Assembly (NCBI GenBank): GCA_030018315.1
Contig: JASEGA010000023.1
Location: forward strand, 1 to 32,463
Source: a bacterium
Lineage (GTDB): Bacteria > Hydrothermota > UBA3073 > JACQXS01 > JAGMCI01
Direction of reading: 5' to 3'
Length of the DNA stretch: 32,463 nt
Under the pieces are notes generated by a model. That model was given only the letters and a program-made list of their open reading frames with translations. It had not been told where the DNA came from and did not search any database. A program made the translations under genes and the position numbers. Positions 6,147-21,571 of the stretch are shown piece by piece; within the stretch, counting starts at the first letter, position 1; the number at the start of each line of letters is the position of its first letter.

Positions 6147-6235
6147 ATCTTCTTTTCCATTTTTCTTCTACTATATTCTAAATTTCTGCGAAATCAACTA
6201 CTTTCTTGACAGCAAATTTAACGAATAATAAATTA

Positions 6236-6263
6236 GATTCTTTGCTTTACTCAGAATGACAGG
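6236..6263. repeat. Dispersed repeat A, intergenic copy
   Basis: The segment GATTCTTTGCTTTACTCAG then AATGACAGG is a diverged copy of the repeat family built around GAGATTCTTCGC...CAGAATGACA found at several other sites. It lies between obg and the zincin gene, next to a short tandem-like run of ACAGATTAC/AAATTAC at about 6279-6300. Confidence 0.6.
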
Positions 6264-7256: not shown

Positions 7257-8822
7257 TTAGACTGTGCTCATATATCCACTTACTAATTCTCCGTATGTTT
7301 TGGGGCCGACAATTTTTTTAATCCTTAAATTAACAAATCTTTTGGTAAGATTTAAATTAGATTTAAATAGGACTTTTATGTAATTCTGTGTCACTCCAAG
7401 TAAATACTGAGATTCTTCCCCTTCGCTGAATTTATGAGATTGCTTCGCTGGCGCTCGCAATGACAGAGGAATGTGGTCAGAATGAAAAGAAGAAGTCATA
7501 GTGGTATTTGGGTCAGAAGACCCAAACCTACCCTCAGTATGCCTGTAAGCAAATGGATGAGATGTGGGTTTAGAATACCATGCTTCAATTGTCTTTGATT
7601 CAATATGTGCTTCAAGAGTCTTACCTATGAACTGTTCTCTGAATGCTTCCCACTTCTTGTCACCGAGTTCTCTAATAATTCTACTTCTCTCTTTTTTTGT
7701 CTTTTCAGGCACTTCATTCTTAAAGTTTGCTGCTTTAGTGCCCGGTCTTTTTGAATATCTAAATACATGAAGCCTTGAAATAGGTGACCGCTGAATTAAA
7801 TCGTAAGTGTTTGCAAATTCAGTCTCTCCTTCACCTGGGAAGCCGACAATGACATCTGCACCTATAGCAACTGATGGTATCTTTTCTTTAATTTTGTAAA
7901 TTAGGTCCTCATATTCTTCAGCAGTATACCAGCGGTTCATTAATTTAAGAATTGAGTTATCACCACTTTGTAGTGGTAAATGGATGTATTTATAAAATTT
8001 GGAAGTAGGGGTTTGATTAATCAAACCCCCACTTCCAATGTAGTCTAAAAACTCGTCTGAAATCCCAAGTGGCTCAATTGAGCCAATCCCAAGCCAATGG
8101 ACACCATGGATTTGGCTGATTGATTTAATTATACCCAGAAGGTTATCACATTTACTAAGGTTTGTGCCTGTGAGTACAAATTCTTCGTATCCGTTAGCAA
8201 TAAGAGCGTTGACTTCAGCGATTATCTCTTCAATAGGTCTTGACTTAGGTGCTCCTCTTGCGTAAGGAACTATGCAATAACTGCAAAACTGGTCACATCC
8301 TTCCTGCACTTTCACGAATGCTTTGGTGTGGTCTGCAAATTTCTTAATTGATTGTAGTATAGGGACTTTGAGAAAATCAGTAACTATTTTTTTGTAATCT
8401 GGTTCTATAAGATTAACTCCTTTTATTGATTTTATTTCATCCTGATACACCTTTGCATAACAGCCAGTAACAATAATAAAAGGTTTATTTGAGTTCATAG
8501 AGTTCATTGAGTTATTGGGTGGCTTTGAGTTTTTGCCTCGTTGACTGTATGTTCTTATGATATTTCTAGCTTCCCTTGCTGCGTGAGCTGTGACAGCACA
8601 AGTGTTAATTACGCAGACGTCAACATCCTCTGCCTGACGAGTGTGATGAGATTCTTCCCCTTCGCGGAGTCTGTCCTGAACTGCATATTGAGATTCTTCA
8701 CTTTGTTCAGAATGACAAGGATGTGGTATTACTTTAAAGCCTGCTATTTCAAATTCTTCACGTAGCCACTCAGTCTTATATTGGTTTAGCCTGCAGCCAA
8801 AAGTTATAAAACTGACTTTCAT
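7257..8822 (-). CDS. mtaB: tRNA N6-threonylcarbamoyladenosine methylthiotransferase, with inserted repeats
   Basis: This radical-SAM methylthiotransferase converts t6A37 to ms2t6A37 in tRNA. The N-terminal UPF0004 domain has cluster ligands Cys10, Cys75 (NTCAVTAHAAREAR) and Cys121 (TGCYA). The radical-SAM CxxxCxxC is Cys176/180/183. LTGTNLSKC and HLPLQSG motifs follow, then a C-terminal TRAM-like region. The NTCAVT...A.R style fits MtaB better than MiaB. At 521 residues it is about 80-100 longer than usual. The excess matches repeat insertions at about residues 36-65 (HSEQSEESQ...), 101-112 (NNSMNSMNSN), 264-273 (GLINQTPT) and 440-472. Core motifs are intact and no stop is introduced, so it is probably functional. 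Confidence 0.93.
   Translation of the reverse strand: MKVSFITFGCRLNQYKTEWLREEFEIAGFKVIPHPCHSEQSEESQYAVQDRLREGEESHHTRQAEDVDVCVINTCAVTAHAAREARNIIRTYSQRGKNSKPPNNSMNSMNSNKPFIIVTGCYAKVYQDEIKSIKGVNLIEPDYKKIVTDFLKVPILQSIKKFADHTKAFVKVQEGCDQFCSYCIVPYARGAPKSRPIEEIIAEVNALIANGYEEFVLTGTNLSKCDNLLGIIKSISQIHGVHWLGIGSIEPLGISDEFLDYIGSGGLINQTPTSKFYKYIHLPLQSGDNSILKLMNRWYTAEEYEDLIYKIKEKIPSVAIGADVIVGFPGEGETEFANTYDLIQRSPISRLHVFRYSKRPGTKAANFKNEVPEKTKKERSRIIRELGDKKWEAFREQFIGKTLEAHIESKTIEAWYSKPTSHPFAYRHTEGRFGSSDPNTTMTSSFHSDHIPLSLRAPAKQSHKFSEGEESQYLLGVTQNYIKVLFKSNLNLTKRFVNLRIKKIVGPKTYGELVSGYMSTV
7408..7468. repeat. Dispersed repeat A inside the mtaB C-terminal region
   Basis: Two half-copies are present: GAGATTCTTCCCCTTCGCTG, then GAGATTGCTTCGCTGGCGCT continuing into CGCAATGACA. 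They are translated on - as part of LSLRAPAKQSHKFSEGEESQ, extending the TRAM region. The copy stays in frame with mtaB. Confidence 0.75.
8001..8036. repeat. Palindrome B inside mtaB (GLINQTPT element)
   Basis: A 36-bp inverted repeat has centre TTGATTAATCAA and arms GGAAGTAGGGGTTTGATT, with one mismatch between arms. It is translated as SGGLINQTPTS between the radical-SAM core and the HLPLQSG motif. The other two frames of the central element contain TGA or TAG, so this is the only open phase. Confidence 0.8.
8646..8720. repeat. Dispersed repeat A (double copy) inside the mtaB N-terminal domain
   Basis: Two GAGATTCTTC-type units in tandem, the second ending TTTGTTCAGAATGACA, are translated on - as HSEQSEESQYAVQDRLREGE. 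They lie between the first cluster Cys and the NTCAVT motif of MtaB, where the family has only a short loop. Confidence 0.8.
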
Positions 8823-14554: not shown

Positions 14555-14645
14555 TGAGATTCTTCGCTTCGCTCAGAATGACAGAAATGGGGGAGATGCT
14601 TCACTTCCCCTTCACTACGTTCAGGGCTTCGGTTCAGAATGGCAT
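14555..14645. repeat. Dispersed repeat A, intergenic cluster
   Basis: This is the best-conserved copy of the family: GAGATTCTTCGCTTCGCTCA then GAATGACA. A second, diverged unit follows (GAGATGCTTCACTTCCCCTT ... TTCGGTTCAGAATGGCA). It fills most of the gap between the DUF72 and P5C dehydrogenase genes. Confidence 0.75.
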
Positions 14646-16225: not shown

Positions 16226-19200
16226 CTATCTTAATACCATAAGTTTAGAAATTTTTGCCGTTTCCTCTCTTGTGAATATCTCTGATACGGCTTCAATCTT
16301 GTAAATATAAATTCCATTCCCAACCCTATTCCCAATCTCATCTCTTGTATCCCAGTAGATTTTACTTGGACCTGCCATTATGTCTTGAGCTGGTATTGTC
16401 TTTATAAGTCTTCCTGTGACAGTGTAAATTTTAACATTCACCCTTGCTGGTTTTGATAAAAAGAATGTAAACCATGTGTGTTCTCCCTTGACCGGGTTTG
16501 GATAATTCATAACTCTTGTAAGTGATAGCTGAGCTGCTGATACCACGTTTACAATAACACACTCTACATTTCGGTTACCAAGATTATCTGACGCCTGTAT
16601 ATATAGCGTATCCTTTACATCCCATTTTCCAAGCACAACTGGGTAAGAGAAGCTACCACGAGTATAACTCCCAATATCATATTTGAAGTAATCTGCAAGT
16701 GGTATATCTTTATCCTTAAATCTAAGTCTAAGCGCTAAATGAAGAGGCTCTATTTTATTAAATATATTAATTCCAGATAAGTCATCCAATACTCCTGAAA
16801 GCGTGAACTCACTCGGCACTAAGTCTCCAGTTCTAAGTGGCTTGCCATTTGCAAAAAGTTCAATTCTCGGTCCAACTGTATCATCTGGATTTGGTTCTCC
16901 TTCAGTGACCACAACTGTCTCTATGCCTGCACTCCCACATTGTGCATCATTTCCACCGGATCCTGCGGACCATGCAAATACGCTAATTTTACCCCTGTTA
17001 CCAGTCATAGGCGAATCTATATCAACTGGAATAAAAAATTCTTGTCTCCATCTCCCATTTTCTACTTTAGTAAGTCCCTCAAATAAGATATCTTGAGTCA
17101 ATTGGCTGCTATCACTAGTCATTCTACCTCTCATTTTATAAGTAGCTATGTTCCCATACACAGTGTATTCTGAACTCATTGCAGTGATGTATGCAAAATT
17201 AGCCCCCGGCGCATGACCTGATACTTTAAGTATCTTCCCACCTTTAAGTGTATCTGGGCAAGAGTCAATTGTAACATCAATTGCCCTATCTATAAGCCTT
17301 GTTGTCGGGTCTGCAAATAAGTTATGATTTGGAGGCAGACTGACAGGAATGCTTGTCCCATATATTGCTTCACCGACAGTACTTGCATTTTGTGTTAAAA
17401 CTCTTTGTATAATTGCAACATCCAAACCTGGTGGTCCACCTTCTGCACGTGTTGAAGCCTCAGTAGCAATAGAGCCTTTATCCTTTATTTTTTGCATGAA
17501 ATCAGCCATCCCATCTTCATATTGACGGTCAAAGCAACCTACTCCACATGACCAAAAATAAGAGATTGGCAGCTTTGTTCCATTATTAAGTGGATAAATA
17601 TCTTGTGGATTTAGAAATAACTGTTCGTGGCAAAGTTGCATCAAGTTCCCATGTCCAGCAAAGAATGTCATAAATACACCATTTGTAATGTATCTAATTA
17701 AATCGCCAGTTGCCTTCCGTTTCAGCCCGCCTATAAGTGGATAATTCGTTAAGTAAACTTTAAATATGTCAACCCCTTTTGGTATTTCATTTGCAAGTCC
17801 TTCTTCATGAATTATAAACCCAGCGTCAGGCTGCTCTGGCCATGCCCCATCATCTGCAATCAGCAATATTCTATTTTGCCATACACCTGTATTTTTTTCA
17901 TATTTTATAAGCTTTTCTATCGCATCACGTGCCTCATCTTTTGATTTTACAGTTATTCTACCAATTGCAAACTTCCCATCCACATACAAAAAGTCGGAAC
18001 AATCATTTCCGGATGGTGGGTATCCATATTCTCCGACACAATAGCCAGTCTCAAATGGGGGGATACGATTCTTTTCTAATGTACCCTTATAATCATAAGT
18101 GCCAGCACCCAAAAGTAGGCAATAGCCAGGTTGACCTTGATTCTCATATGCAAATTTAAGAAAGTTTCTTATCGCATAAGGTGAGTTCATAAGTCCCCAT
18201 GAGAAATTGTTGTAGATATCAAATATAGAAAAGACTTTTGTCTGACATCCTTGTCCTTCTCTATATCTTTTAAGTTTATTTGCATAATCAAAGAAATCTG
18301 GGTGTGTAATTATTATAAAGTCTATATTCGCTACTTCATTCCGCAAATTATACGGGCTTTCTACTTTAAGGCGTGGCGTTTTAAACTCATTGCTTGCATA
18401 ATAAACACCTTCAAGACATTGAAATTTAACAATACCATTTTCAAATACTGCACCGTACACAAATTTTGGCTCAATAGGATTAGTGATATTAAAGATTACA
18501 GGTAGCTTGTGAAAATTCTGCACCCTAAACTCTAAATTAGCCCCTTTTCCTTTAAATTTTAAGCTTTCATTGTATGCTTTGTATTTCCTTTTATAAATGA
18601 CTTCAAACCAATTAAAGAATATAATATCATTCTTTTGCGACGCCCCTTTATACATCTCAAGTGTAAAAGTGTTTACCCCATCAAGCCCTGTAGCGTGCTC
18701 TTCGTAGATTTTAGGTGGGTCTTGGTCGCCACCAGTCCAACTTGTTTCAAAGAAGCTCACTCCATTCAAATATAACCTTATATTATGAAGCAAGTTAATA
18801 TCGGCACCAGTCTTGTCACTATACCAGCCATAAACTGCAACCCTAACTGTGCACGAATCTACTTTCTGTCCATGCGCATTAAATATATAATCTCTCTTAA
18901 AGCTACTATTTTCTTTAGCTCTTTCAAGCTTTTCCCATACGAATTGAAGCCCACTTTTCGACGGGCATAACAAGTCTTCTTCTACATGTAGGGTATCAAT
19001 AAAATATTCTGGTATTTCTGGATTTGGATTTATAATGCTACCAGAAATGCTGTCTCTTCTTCCTGTTGTTCCACCATAAGTAAGCCAGTAGACATTAGTA
19101 TTAGTATAAGGGTTATAAAATAGCTTATCTCTGACATTCTTGTCCCATCCGCTAAGTGATGTACCGTAGAATAAGATAGAAGTGTCAGGTAAAACATAAA

Positions 19201-20014
19201 TTGGCACTTCTCTTAGTGTATCTAAAGAGTCAGTACACATTTTACTACCGCCATTATATAATTTTATTGTGTAAGGCTCAATTGTATTAAGAGAAATGCC
19301 TACACCTTTAAGCTGTTCTTTAGTAATTTTATATATACCTTCGTCTTGAAGTTCAACCTTGTACCATGGTCCTAGCCGGTATTTAAAATGCTTTACTTCC
19401 ATTTTTTTACGCCAGTTTTTAGCTTGCTCATAATTGATAAGTTCATTTTTGAACACATTTTCAAAGATTTTGTCCCGTTGCGGTACTCCGGTGCCTCCAT
19501 AAAAATTGACTTTTATTCTTATCTTTTTATAAAATAACAAAACTTTACGTTTCGGATTATATCTTAATGGATTTATTCTAATTGTCAGTACTTCCTGCTC
19601 TCTACAAAACTTTCGTTCTTTTATGGCAACAAGTTCATAAGGCCAAAATCCGTCCCTATTGTATATTTCCTTATCTTCTTCACCCTCTGTAAACCCTTTT
19701 GTAGGTGGTATGTATACATCTGTCAATTCTATAGATATAGCTTCAATAACATTGACATCAAATTTAGCACCCACCGGTATTCCCATTGCAACATATTTGA
19801 TAGGAAGGTTAGGTTTACCAACCTCTTGTTGAGGATAAGTGTTTGGAATGTAAGGGAACGGTTTAAGTAATAGTTTGGGGGGAGTATATACAAATTCTAC
19901 TTCATTTCGCGTAGAGCTAATTACCTCAATATCATTATGGGATTGCTTCGCTGTCGCTTGGAATGACAGGATAGGGTCATTATGTGCTAATATTATTAAA
20001 AAAAGTAGCCACAT
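16226..20014 (-). CDS. C25 (gingipain-family) cysteine peptidase with C-terminal sorting domain
   Basis: This 1262-residue exported protease has a short hydrophobic N-terminus (MWLLFLIILA), a propeptide-like region (about 30-210), mixed beta domains, and a C25 catalytic domain near 560-900. The catalytic domain has FFAGHG (His788) and WSCGVGCF (Cys823), the expected His/Cys dyad. Beta-sandwich modules follow, and the C-terminus is FlgD/Por-like, NYPNPVKGEHTWFTF ... GRLIKTI ... GNGIYIYKIEA, of the kind used for type IX-like sorting. Residues about 13-27 are a 15-codon repeat insertion just after the signal peptide core, flanked by HND on both sides. The target of the peptidase is unknown; self-processing or surface proteolysis is likely. 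Confidence 0.9.
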   Translation of the reverse strand: MWLLFLIILAHNDPILSFQATAKQSHNDIEVISSTRNEVEFVYTPPKLLLKPFPYIPNTYPQQEVGKPNLPIKYVAMGIPVGAKFDVNVIEAISIELTDVYIPPTKGFTEGEEDKEIYNRDGFWPYELVAIKERKFCREQEVLTIRINPLRYNPKRKVLLFYKKIRIKVNFYGGTGVPQRDKIFENVFKNELINYEQAKNWRKKMEVKHFKYRLGPWYKVELQDEGIYKITKEQLKGVGISLNTIEPYTIKLYNGGSKMCTDSLDTLREVPIYVLPDTSILFYGTSLSGWDKNVRDKLFYNPYTNTNVYWLTYGGTTGRRDSISGSIINPNPEIPEYFIDTLHVEEDLLCPSKSGLQFVWEKLERAKENSSFKRDYIFNAHGQKVDSCTVRVAVYGWYSDKTGADINLLHNIRLYLNGVSFFETSWTGGDQDPPKIYEEHATGLDGVNTFTLEMYKGASQKNDIIFFNWFEVIYKRKYKAYNESLKFKGKGANLEFRVQNFHKLPVIFNITNPIEPKFVYGAVFENGIVKFQCLEGVYYASNEFKTPRLKVESPYNLRNEVANIDFIIITHPDFFDYANKLKRYREGQGCQTKVFSIFDIYNNFSWGLMNSPYAIRNFLKFAYENQGQPGYCLLLGAGTYDYKGTLEKNRIPPFETGYCVGEYGYPPSGNDCSDFLYVDGKFAIGRITVKSKDEARDAIEKLIKYEKNTGVWQNRILLIADDGAWPEQPDAGFIIHEEGLANEIPKGVDIFKVYLTNYPLIGGLKRKATGDLIRYITNGVFMTFFAGHGNLMQLCHEQLFLNPQDIYPLNNGTKLPISYFWSCGVGCFDRQYEDGMADFMQKIKDKGSIATEASTRAEGGPPGLDVAIIQRVLTQNASTVGEAIYGTSIPVSLPPNHNLFADPTTRLIDRAIDVTIDSCPDTLKGGKILKVSGHAPGANFAYITAMSSEYTVYGNIATYKMRGRMTSDSSQLTQDILFEGLTKVENGRWRQEFFIPVDIDSPMTGNRGKISVFAWSAGSGGNDAQCGSAGIETVVVTEGEPNPDDTVGPRIELFANGKPLRTGDLVPSEFTLSGVLDDLSGINIFNKIEPLHLALRLRFKDKDIPLADYFKYDIGSYTRGSFSYPVVLGKWDVKDTLYIQASDNLGNRNVECVIVNVVSAAQLSLTRVMNYPNPVKGEHTWFTFFLSKPARVNVKIYTVTGRLIKTIPAQDIMAGPSKIYWDTRDEIGNRVGNGIYIYKIEAVSEIFTREETAKISKLMVLR
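19932..19984. repeat. Repeat A insertion in the C25 gene with 8-bp flanking direct repeat
   Basis: TCATTATG occurs at 19932-19939 and again at 19977-19984, a 45-bp offset. Between them lies GGATTGCTTCGCTGTCGCTT followed by GGAATGACA, a member of repeat family A. Removing one 45-bp unit leaves a continuous frame (LAHNDIEV). This looks like an in-frame insertion with target duplication. Confidence 0.75.
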
Positions 20015-20305: not shown

Positions 20306-21571
20306 CTAAAGCCTTGCGCTACATATTTTGTATGGTAATGGGTATTTTATCTTTACCCAAGTCTCTTTATTATTATTTATTTCTATAGTCTTACCCCACA
20401 CTTCTGGCAATACTTCAATGAGTTCACCATCCACCATAATTCCAATCATTGTATTTGATGGCAAATCTTCATCAAATGTAAGTTCAATTAAAGAACTACC
20501 GAGTGCACCAAGCTTAAAATTAGTATCCATAAGTTTATGTGGCAATTTCTCTCTTAATAGTACAGGTTTTGTAGAATCTCTACGCACAAAATGAACTTCT
20601 TTGCCACAGGCTCCTTTGGAGAGTTGGTAAACTGGTTGATTAGGATAAGCTATCTGATAAAGTCCCAGCTTACCTGGCTGTAGTAAGGTTTGGATTAAAC
20701 TTGTAGAAATATTCTGAGATATAAGTTTCAGTGTTATACAATCACCCAGTATTTTATACTTTACATTTGTAAATCCGTATAATTCAAATCTTTCCTTTAA
20801 TATTTTAGCCACCGTTTTTGTTTCTTCCTTAGCAATTATTTTAATTGTTTGAGTCTTTGCTAACGGGTCAATTATCTCAAATTCACCGCCAATATTTTTG
20901 AACTTAAACTCCCACTGAATTTGAGATTCTTCCACTTTGCTACGCTCAGGGTCAGAATGACATTTTAATTTACCTTTTGCGACCACCTTTTCTGGCAGTC
21001 TTGACATTATATTAATCCATACCTCACCGTAAGCTTCAGTAAGATTGGGGCACATAAAAAGTAAGTTAGGCTTAAATTCATATATGAAGTGACCATACTT
21101 TTCCACAGGATTCTGCGAAGCTTCTTTAAATTTATATTCACCGATAGAACAAACCATCCGTAGGTAGGATACTGGCTGTGTCTCCTGTGTTCTATCTCTC
21201 TTCTCCCACTTGTTATTTATCCACCTATATTCATCGTCTGCAATCCCAATCGCAGACAGCTTTTCAATAGTTGAATTGAATTTCCAACTCCCATCTATTT
21301 TCACCTTATCGTCTGTTTTTACTCCTTTAAATTTGCCTTTGAGGTGATCACCTCTTAACCCTATTTTTGAGAATTTAAGCTCAAATTCAAAACTTTGTGT
21401 CTCAATACTTTCCATAACTTGCTTTACTTCTTGTGGTGATAACGGTTGGCCTGTAGGGGTTTGATTAATCAAACCCCTACTACTTTTTGTAGTACATCCC
21501 GCTAAAGACAGAAGACAGAATACAGAACGCAGAATACGGGCTGCATCCTGTTTCCTGTTAACTTTCATCAT
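20306..21571 (-). CDS. Lipoprotein with a SecD-like periplasmic region
   Basis: This 421-residue protein has a lipobox SLAGC (Cys26), so it is probably an acylated membrane lipoprotein. The middle (residues about 50-200) resembles LolA/LppX-type beta-rich lipoprotein folds. Residues about 250-390 (TVAKILKERFELYGF ... ITLKL ... LLQPGKLGLYQI, then LIELTFDE...GIMVDGELIE) follow the SecD P1 head pattern. It carries three repeats: palindrome B directly after the lipobox (SRGLINQTPTG), an 18-bp element D (ASQNPVEK), and repeat A (CHSDPERSKVEESQ, about 206-219). The signal peptide itself is translated from a CTGTATTCTGTCTTCTGT-like repeat. The function is not known. Confidence 0.7.
   Translation of the reverse strand: MMKVNRKQDAARILRSVFCLLSLAGCTTKSSRGLINQTPTGQPLSPQEVKQVMESIETQSFEFELKFSKIGLRGDHLKGKFKGVKTDDKVKIDGSWKFNSTIEKLSAIGIADDEYRWINNKWEKRDRTQETQPVSYLRMVCSIGEYKFKEASQNPVEKYGHFIYEFKPNLLFMCPNLTEAYGEVWINIMSRLPEKVVAKGKLKCHSDPERSKVEESQIQWEFKFKNIGGEFEIIDPLAKTQTIKIIAKEETKTVAKILKERFELYGFTNVKYKILGDCITLKLISQNISTSLIQTLLQPGKLGLYQIAYPNQPVYQLSKGACGKEVHFVRRDSTKPVLLREKLPHKLMDTNFKLGALGSSLIELTFDEDLPSNTMIGIMVDGELIEVLPEVWGKTIEINNNKETWVKIKYPLPYKICSARL
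20922..20962. repeat. Dispersed repeat A inside the lipoprotein gene
   Basis: TGAGATTCTTCCACTTTGCT, continuing ACGCTCAGGGTCAGAATGACA, is translated on - as CHSDPERSKVEESQ. The frame is maintained through the element. Confidence 0.75.
21102..21119. repeat. 18-bp repeat D, copy 1 (in the lipoprotein gene)
   Basis: TCCACAGGATTCTGCGAA is translated on - as SQNPVE. Two more exact copies lie at 22658-22675 (same orientation) and 22866-22883 (inverted). Confidence 0.75.
21453..21480. repeat. Palindrome B inside the lipoprotein gene (GLINQTPT element)
   Basis: A perfect 28-bp inverted repeat has arm GTAGGGGTTTGATT. It is translated on - as RGLINQTPT immediately after the lipidated Cys region, in the same phase as the copy in mtaB. 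Confidence 0.85.

Follow-up and report, generated by a model that had tools for sequence, protein, structure and literature searches.

The 53-bp feature at positions 19932 to 19984 of the window (the whole 32,463-nucleotide stretch of DNA that was analysed) raises the question of how a short repeat came to stand inside the reading frame of a peptidase gene, and whether the exact 8-bp direct repeat on either side of it is the footprint of a transposase. The initial annotation took it for such a footprint and proposed a MITE-like mini-element that tolerates or prefers coding DNA. Our results suggest that the feature is probably a TGTC/CGTC-tagged REP that entered the reading frame where signal peptide and mature protein meet, a permissive site, and that the 8-bp repeat is a one-off by-product and not a MITE target duplication.

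The host gene (16226 to 20014, minus strand) encodes a C25 peptidase of 1262 aa (Pfam PF01364, E value 5.8e-53), with a propeptide, the C25 catalytic domain and a C-terminal FlgD-like/sorting-type domain. Based on sequence inspection, the hydrophobic signal peptide codons (MWLLFLIILA; 19985 to 20014, minus strand) are directly followed by the insert. On the plus strand this consists of a left copy of TCATTATG (19932 to 19939), the 30-bp REP A core GRGATTGCTTCGCTNNCGCTYGSAATGACA (19939 to 19968), whose right end bears a TGTC tag when the complementary strand is read, an 8-bp G-rich extension GGATAGGG (19969 to 19976), and a right copy of TCATTATG (19977 to 19984). The two TCATTATG copies are exact, are spaced 45 bp apart and are both within the C25 reading frame. 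The 37 bp between them are the core plus the extension, with the first core base, a single G, being common to the core and the left copy. The coding strand starts as ATG...TTAGCA-CATAATGA-(37 bp)-CATAATGA-TATTGAG and the protein as MWLLFLIILA-HND-PILSFQATAKQS-HND-IEVISS. Deleting 45 bp joins the flanks into MWLLFLIILAHNDIEVISS. Both the placement of a repeat-A unit between two TCATTATG copies and the uninterrupted reading after its removal, as they were originally described, were thus confirmed. Because the signal peptide lies before the insert and is common to the orthologues, the insert is coding and not a misannotated 5' leader. An Rfam scan of the window returned one tRNA and nothing else.

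Comparison with orthologues supports a real insertion. The orthologue in G001, the closest available genome (same family, different genus), is 63% identical at the protein level and starts with MWIYILLLFA-QDIKILESG (MWIYILLLFAQDIKILESG), lacking both the element and a second HND-like stretch. The joined flanks of the C25 gene correspond to this N terminus to within one codon. The empty site that the initial annotation asked to be sought in relatives is therefore present, with a single HND-like stretch, and the segment is an in-frame addition relative to the closest orthologue. As far as sequence can tell, this comparison makes a local duplication of 8 bp at the C25 site plausible. In more distant orthologues, the linkers at the junction between signal peptide and mature protein differ widely in length and sequence, indicating that this junction is a permissive site.

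Repeat A is dispersed in the genome, as had been supposed, with 34 copies at up to three mismatches compared to 0 for a reversed control pattern. The flanks were read for 30 of these copies and for 30 of the 56 copies of the sister family, REP B (GAGATTCTTCNCTTNGCTCAGAATGACA). Column counts over the 30 A copies gave a core, GRGATTGCTTCGCTNNCGCTYGCAATGACA, of about 30 bp with sharp borders, outside of which the sequence is not conserved, apart from a stretch of about 9 bp, degenerate and G-rich, beside the AATGACA end (30% G, compared to 14% on the other side). REP B has such a stretch at the same position (41% versus 13%). Since A and B copies generally consist of core plus G-rich extension, the 37 bp enclosed by the direct repeats are one extended element. 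The C25 segment in the window matches dispersed A copies at 89 to 93%, and most of those copies are outside genes. On the other strand, A reads TGTC-ATTGC...GCAAT-CTC, that is, a TGTC tag, a stem that starts with A-T pairs, a 4-nt loop and a short tail of three unpaired bases, CTC or CCC. The consensus stem is interrupted (5 + 2 bp with an internal loop), and the copy in the C25 gene has a mutated stem (GGAAT instead of GCAAT) that folds differently from the consensus. The TGTC tag is present in 86% of the A copies of this genome, and CGTC is found in several copies of G004. Apart from its own imperfect hairpin core, A has no terminal inverted repeats. Among the matches listed, searching the literature for the repeat sequence yielded only unrelated ones. 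Exact REP A cores are also carried by six IMG/VR viral contigs (L364 to L369). In G011 and G014, REP A forms tandem arrays with a period of 41 to 42 bp (L161, L164, L173, and L177), and the tandem copy number differs between these congeners, with one copy in L164 and three in L177.

Could the 8-bp repeat be a duplication of its target site? Taken alone, it is more than chance: an exact repeat of at least 8 bp within 20 bp on each side was found for 0.7% of random 28-bp sites in the AT-rich window, and permuted flanks of REP copies gave a chance of about 0.2 to 0.3% per copy. One case across all copies of the family is not significant. None of the 29 other A copies examined in the genome, including those with a perfect core, has an 8-bp flanking repeat. 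In a MITE family, most copies are expected to have target site duplications of one constant length, whereas here 1 of 30 copies has one. The initial annotation had proposed the repeat as the mark of a transposase or integrase-type event and had itself named the lack of flanking repeats at other copies as counting against this; as a feature of the family, the repeat is thus not supported. The mean longest flanking match of the 30 A copies was 4.4 bp, hardly above the 4.1 bp for permuted flanks. Over 113 A copies in six genomes, anchored repeats of at least 8 bp were present at 5, with 0.28 expected. The four others are all within the tandem REP arrays of G011 and G014, where the flanks repeat because the whole unit does; outside such arrays the C25 copy is the only case in 109 copies of the six genomes. 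Between G011 and G014 there were no clean DNA-level empty sites, and their REP-rich intergenic regions are mosaic. A general target duplication, whether of 8 bp or of another abutting length, was ruled out for repeats A and B and for a third repeat, palindrome C, by the flank surveys.

It is most likely that the 8-bp repeat at the C25 site is a one-off by-product of the insertion. Host repair or an unlinked HUH-type activity may have copied a REP in the form of a short fragment able to fold into a hairpin, and 8 bp would have been duplicated once upon insertion, as could happen when a staggered break is filled in. The insert would then have been retained for two reasons: together with the duplicated 8 bp its length is divisible by three, and it landed in a disordered, fast-changing linker. 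We have moderate confidence in this mechanism for the insertion of REP A in the C25 gene. Three points go against it. The exact repeat and the 37-bp extended element adjoin as neatly as in a true target duplication, the stem of A, with its internal loop, differs from the 8- to 9-bp stems of the CGTC REPs described so far, and the empty site was read from a different genus, at 63% protein identity.

The same counts bear on another explanation, in which the repeat is a coincidence or came in part with the insert and the REP was inserted without any target duplication. As about 0.3 such repeats are expected over the 113 copies, one non-array case in 109 is unremarkable, and some A copies do have variable flanking sequence. 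We nevertheless consider this explanation unlikely. The chance at a single site is just 0.2 to 0.7%, and the N terminus obtained from the joined flanks is very near that of the relative. In addition, the segment running from the right end of the REP into the second TCATTATG has no second copy in the genome at up to three mismatches, and a donor that is still present can therefore not have supplied the 8 bp.

A further explanation is that the 37-bp unit is a mini-element of the MITE type, mobilised by a DDE transposase or integrase whose action leaves an 8-bp target duplication; this is improbable. Such an element would explain why the exact repeat sits right at both borders of the unit formed by core and extension and why there is a clean in-frame empty site compared to G001, and the same genome does contain a real MITE, which has both terminal inverted repeats and long direct repeats. 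That MITE carries REP B and not A, and the other A copies of the genome, perfect cores included, all lack the 8-bp repeat. An autonomous partner, for which a search had been suggested at the outset, was not found: the genome has two Y1 transposase (Y1_Tnp) genes, with no copy of A, B or C within about 1.5 kb on each side of either, which also rules out linkage to a RAYT, and A lacks separate terminal inverted repeats beyond its hairpin. From the MITE-like reading, the dispersed element and the real insertion stand, while the general duplication and the preference for coding DNA do not. The C25 case speaks against the spread of repeat A by a simple MITE mechanism.

The real MITE is an example, from this genome, of how a MITE with target duplications appears, and it demonstrates that REP B can be carried along by such an element. 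Fourteen of the 30 sampled B loci (L065 to L068, L072, L073, L075, L077 to L079, L082, L083, L085, and L086) are in this 97%-identical element of about 160 to 170 bp, which has the inverted termini TTGCTTTGTTGAATAA.../...TTATTCAACAAAGCAA. In several copies, direct repeats of about 9 to 11 bp stand at the ends (for example, AAGTCTTTTTT in L073 and AAGAAAAAGC in L078), and in L066 a transposase-like ORF fragment adjoins the MITE. The termini may resemble those of IS903 (IS5 family), which duplicates 9 bp.

REP A avoids coding DNA. Only 9 of 30 A copies are in ORFs of at least 120 aa, compared to 464 of 600 random positions (77%) in the sampled loci; for B it is 5 of 17. A preference of repeat A for coding DNA, which the initial annotation had allowed for, is thus not supported, although in-frame copies do occur in real genes, namely, those for an MtaB-like enzyme, a bacterial sugar transferase, a hydrogenase maturation protease and a second C25 peptidase. 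The first of these is in the window, where an MtaB/MiaB-like radical SAM gene (7257 to 8822, minus strand) has several in-frame repeat inserts and encodes 521 aa, versus about 410 to 420 in its orthologues. The extra segments coincide with repeat copies. A REP B copy (8690 to 8717, plus strand) is part of the B-containing N-terminal insert that is absent from the orthologues, a copy of palindrome C (8005 to 8032) adds GGLINQTP and makes the protein about 8 aa longer there, and the second REP A copy of the window (7438 to 7465, plus strand) is in frame near the C terminus in an insert that the orthologues also lack. This gene is still open despite at least three separate in-frame repeat inserts plus an NNSMNSMNSN insert, with about 100 extra residues in total. 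Two further B copies in the window are intergenic (6234 to 6261 and 14556 to 14583, both on the plus strand).

Another way in which repeats of this kind are found in proteins was seen in G002 (L147 to L157 and L213), where about nine A copies, judging by DNA context, are present as the protein linker GVEER-DCFANARND-RLEVYPNPF or close variants. Six of these are clean translations. The linker stands exactly before the C-terminal YPNPF (FlgD/sorting-type) domain; one protein has B instead of A at this place (GVEERRFFADAQNDRLEASPNPF), and most of the paralogues have unrelated linkers of similar length. Although this use of REP A and REP B before many YPNPF domains and the long variable linkers of other orthologues at the C25 site could suggest that the C25 segment is an ancestral linker lost by G001, resembling A by shared ancestry of a spreading coding module, this is very improbable, as the segment matches the mostly nongenic A copies so closely and no clearly related peptide is present in the linkers of the other orthologues.

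The case for spreading inside genes is stronger for palindrome C (GTAGGGGTTTGATTAATCAAACCCCTAC) than for repeat A. Palindrome C is a perfect 28-bp palindrome with 38 copies in the genome, 19 of them exact, and among the 40 genomes searched it was found only in the source genome and in G004 (8 copies). The loci considered were the two in the window (8005 to 8032 and 21453 to 21480) and L091 to L105 and L237 to L256. The proportion of C copies in ORFs (28 of 35 at a threshold of 80 aa or more and 26 of 35 at 120 aa or more) equals that of random positions. C is read in one open frame, as (C/G/S)RGLINQTPT or a close variant; the window copy at 21453 to 21480, for example, is in frame in the ORF at 20306 to 21571 and encodes SRGLINQTPT. 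Based on reading of the sequences, and on orthologue alignment for all but the first, the host proteins look like asparagine synthetase, PrmC, IleRS, dihydroorotase (PyrC-like), PhoH, PheT, TsaC and MurD (twice). The C-bearing proteins are about 0 to 9 residues longer than their orthologues, which does not support a fixed insertion of 10 residues. As the gain in length is not constant, C may often replace loop sequence, or the loop may have been trimmed later. No abutting duplication of 3 bp or more was found at C in 29 copies. In other phyla, exact C copies are mostly outside ORFs (15 of 66 are in ORFs of at least 120 aa), so the coding tolerance of C is particular to the source genome.

This suggests that protein-coding DNA may be invaded in an RPE-like manner outside the Rickettsiales, with C present in about 26 genes, always in a single open frame and without avoidance of coding DNA or target duplication, and with REPs A and B reused as protein linkers. 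For us, the arguments for and against such an invasion are evenly balanced. If it is true, short palindromes are copied into genes without the footprint of a known transposase. The genome has several REP-like families in frame in secreted as well as housekeeping proteins, and a comparison of close strains would allow tests of how the copies are made and of how insertions in coding DNA are tolerated.

Among known systems, the CGTC-tagged REPs are the closest. For these, TGTC and CCTC variants of the unpaired CGTC tetranucleotide, intragenic copies and the absence of a linked transposase have been described (Di Nocera et al. 2013, PMC3733652), and how they spread is an open question, as no transposase is tied to them. 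Like them, repeat A is a hairpin of about 30 bp that has a TGTC/CGTC tag at one end and, in its consensus, A-T pairs at the base of the stem and a 4-nt loop, and it is present in tens of copies, mostly intergenic and some in frame in genes, with no linked transposase. The described CGTC REPs have an 8- to 9-bp stem beginning with A-T pairs, a loop of 4 to 5 nt and a three-base tail that is mostly CCA (PMC3733652), whereas A has the interrupted 5 + 2-bp stem, a CTC or CCC tail and the additional G-rich extension, and its host lineage is apparently not covered in that study. The Rickettsia elements RPE-4 and RPE-6 belong to the CGTC REPs (PMC3733652). As with RPEs, palindromic repeats are found here in frame in genes of unrelated function, where they encode peptides that are absent from orthologues (the C25 and MtaB-like proteins). 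RPEs are about 150 bp long (review, PMC10969869) and come from Rickettsia, whereas the elements described here are 28 to 45 bp long and come from an unrelated lineage; moreover, palindrome C is a perfect palindrome and is read in one frame only. With the REP/RAYT (REPtron) systems (PMC2817692), the repeats share short dispersed hairpins and the lack of larger target duplications, which are also not made by IS200/IS605-type transposases, the only class linked to REPs (PMC2817692). Those REPs have GTAG heads and flank a RAYT gene, while here neither Y1 gene is near A, B or C. Repeat A resembles MITEs in being small, dispersed, noncoding and sometimes located in genes, and in the direct repeats that flank the C25 copy, but it has no separate terminal inverted repeats, no family-wide target duplication and no autonomous partner that could be found. 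Repeat A is therefore best filed as a variant CGTC-type REP, a class for which in-frame copies within genes are already known.
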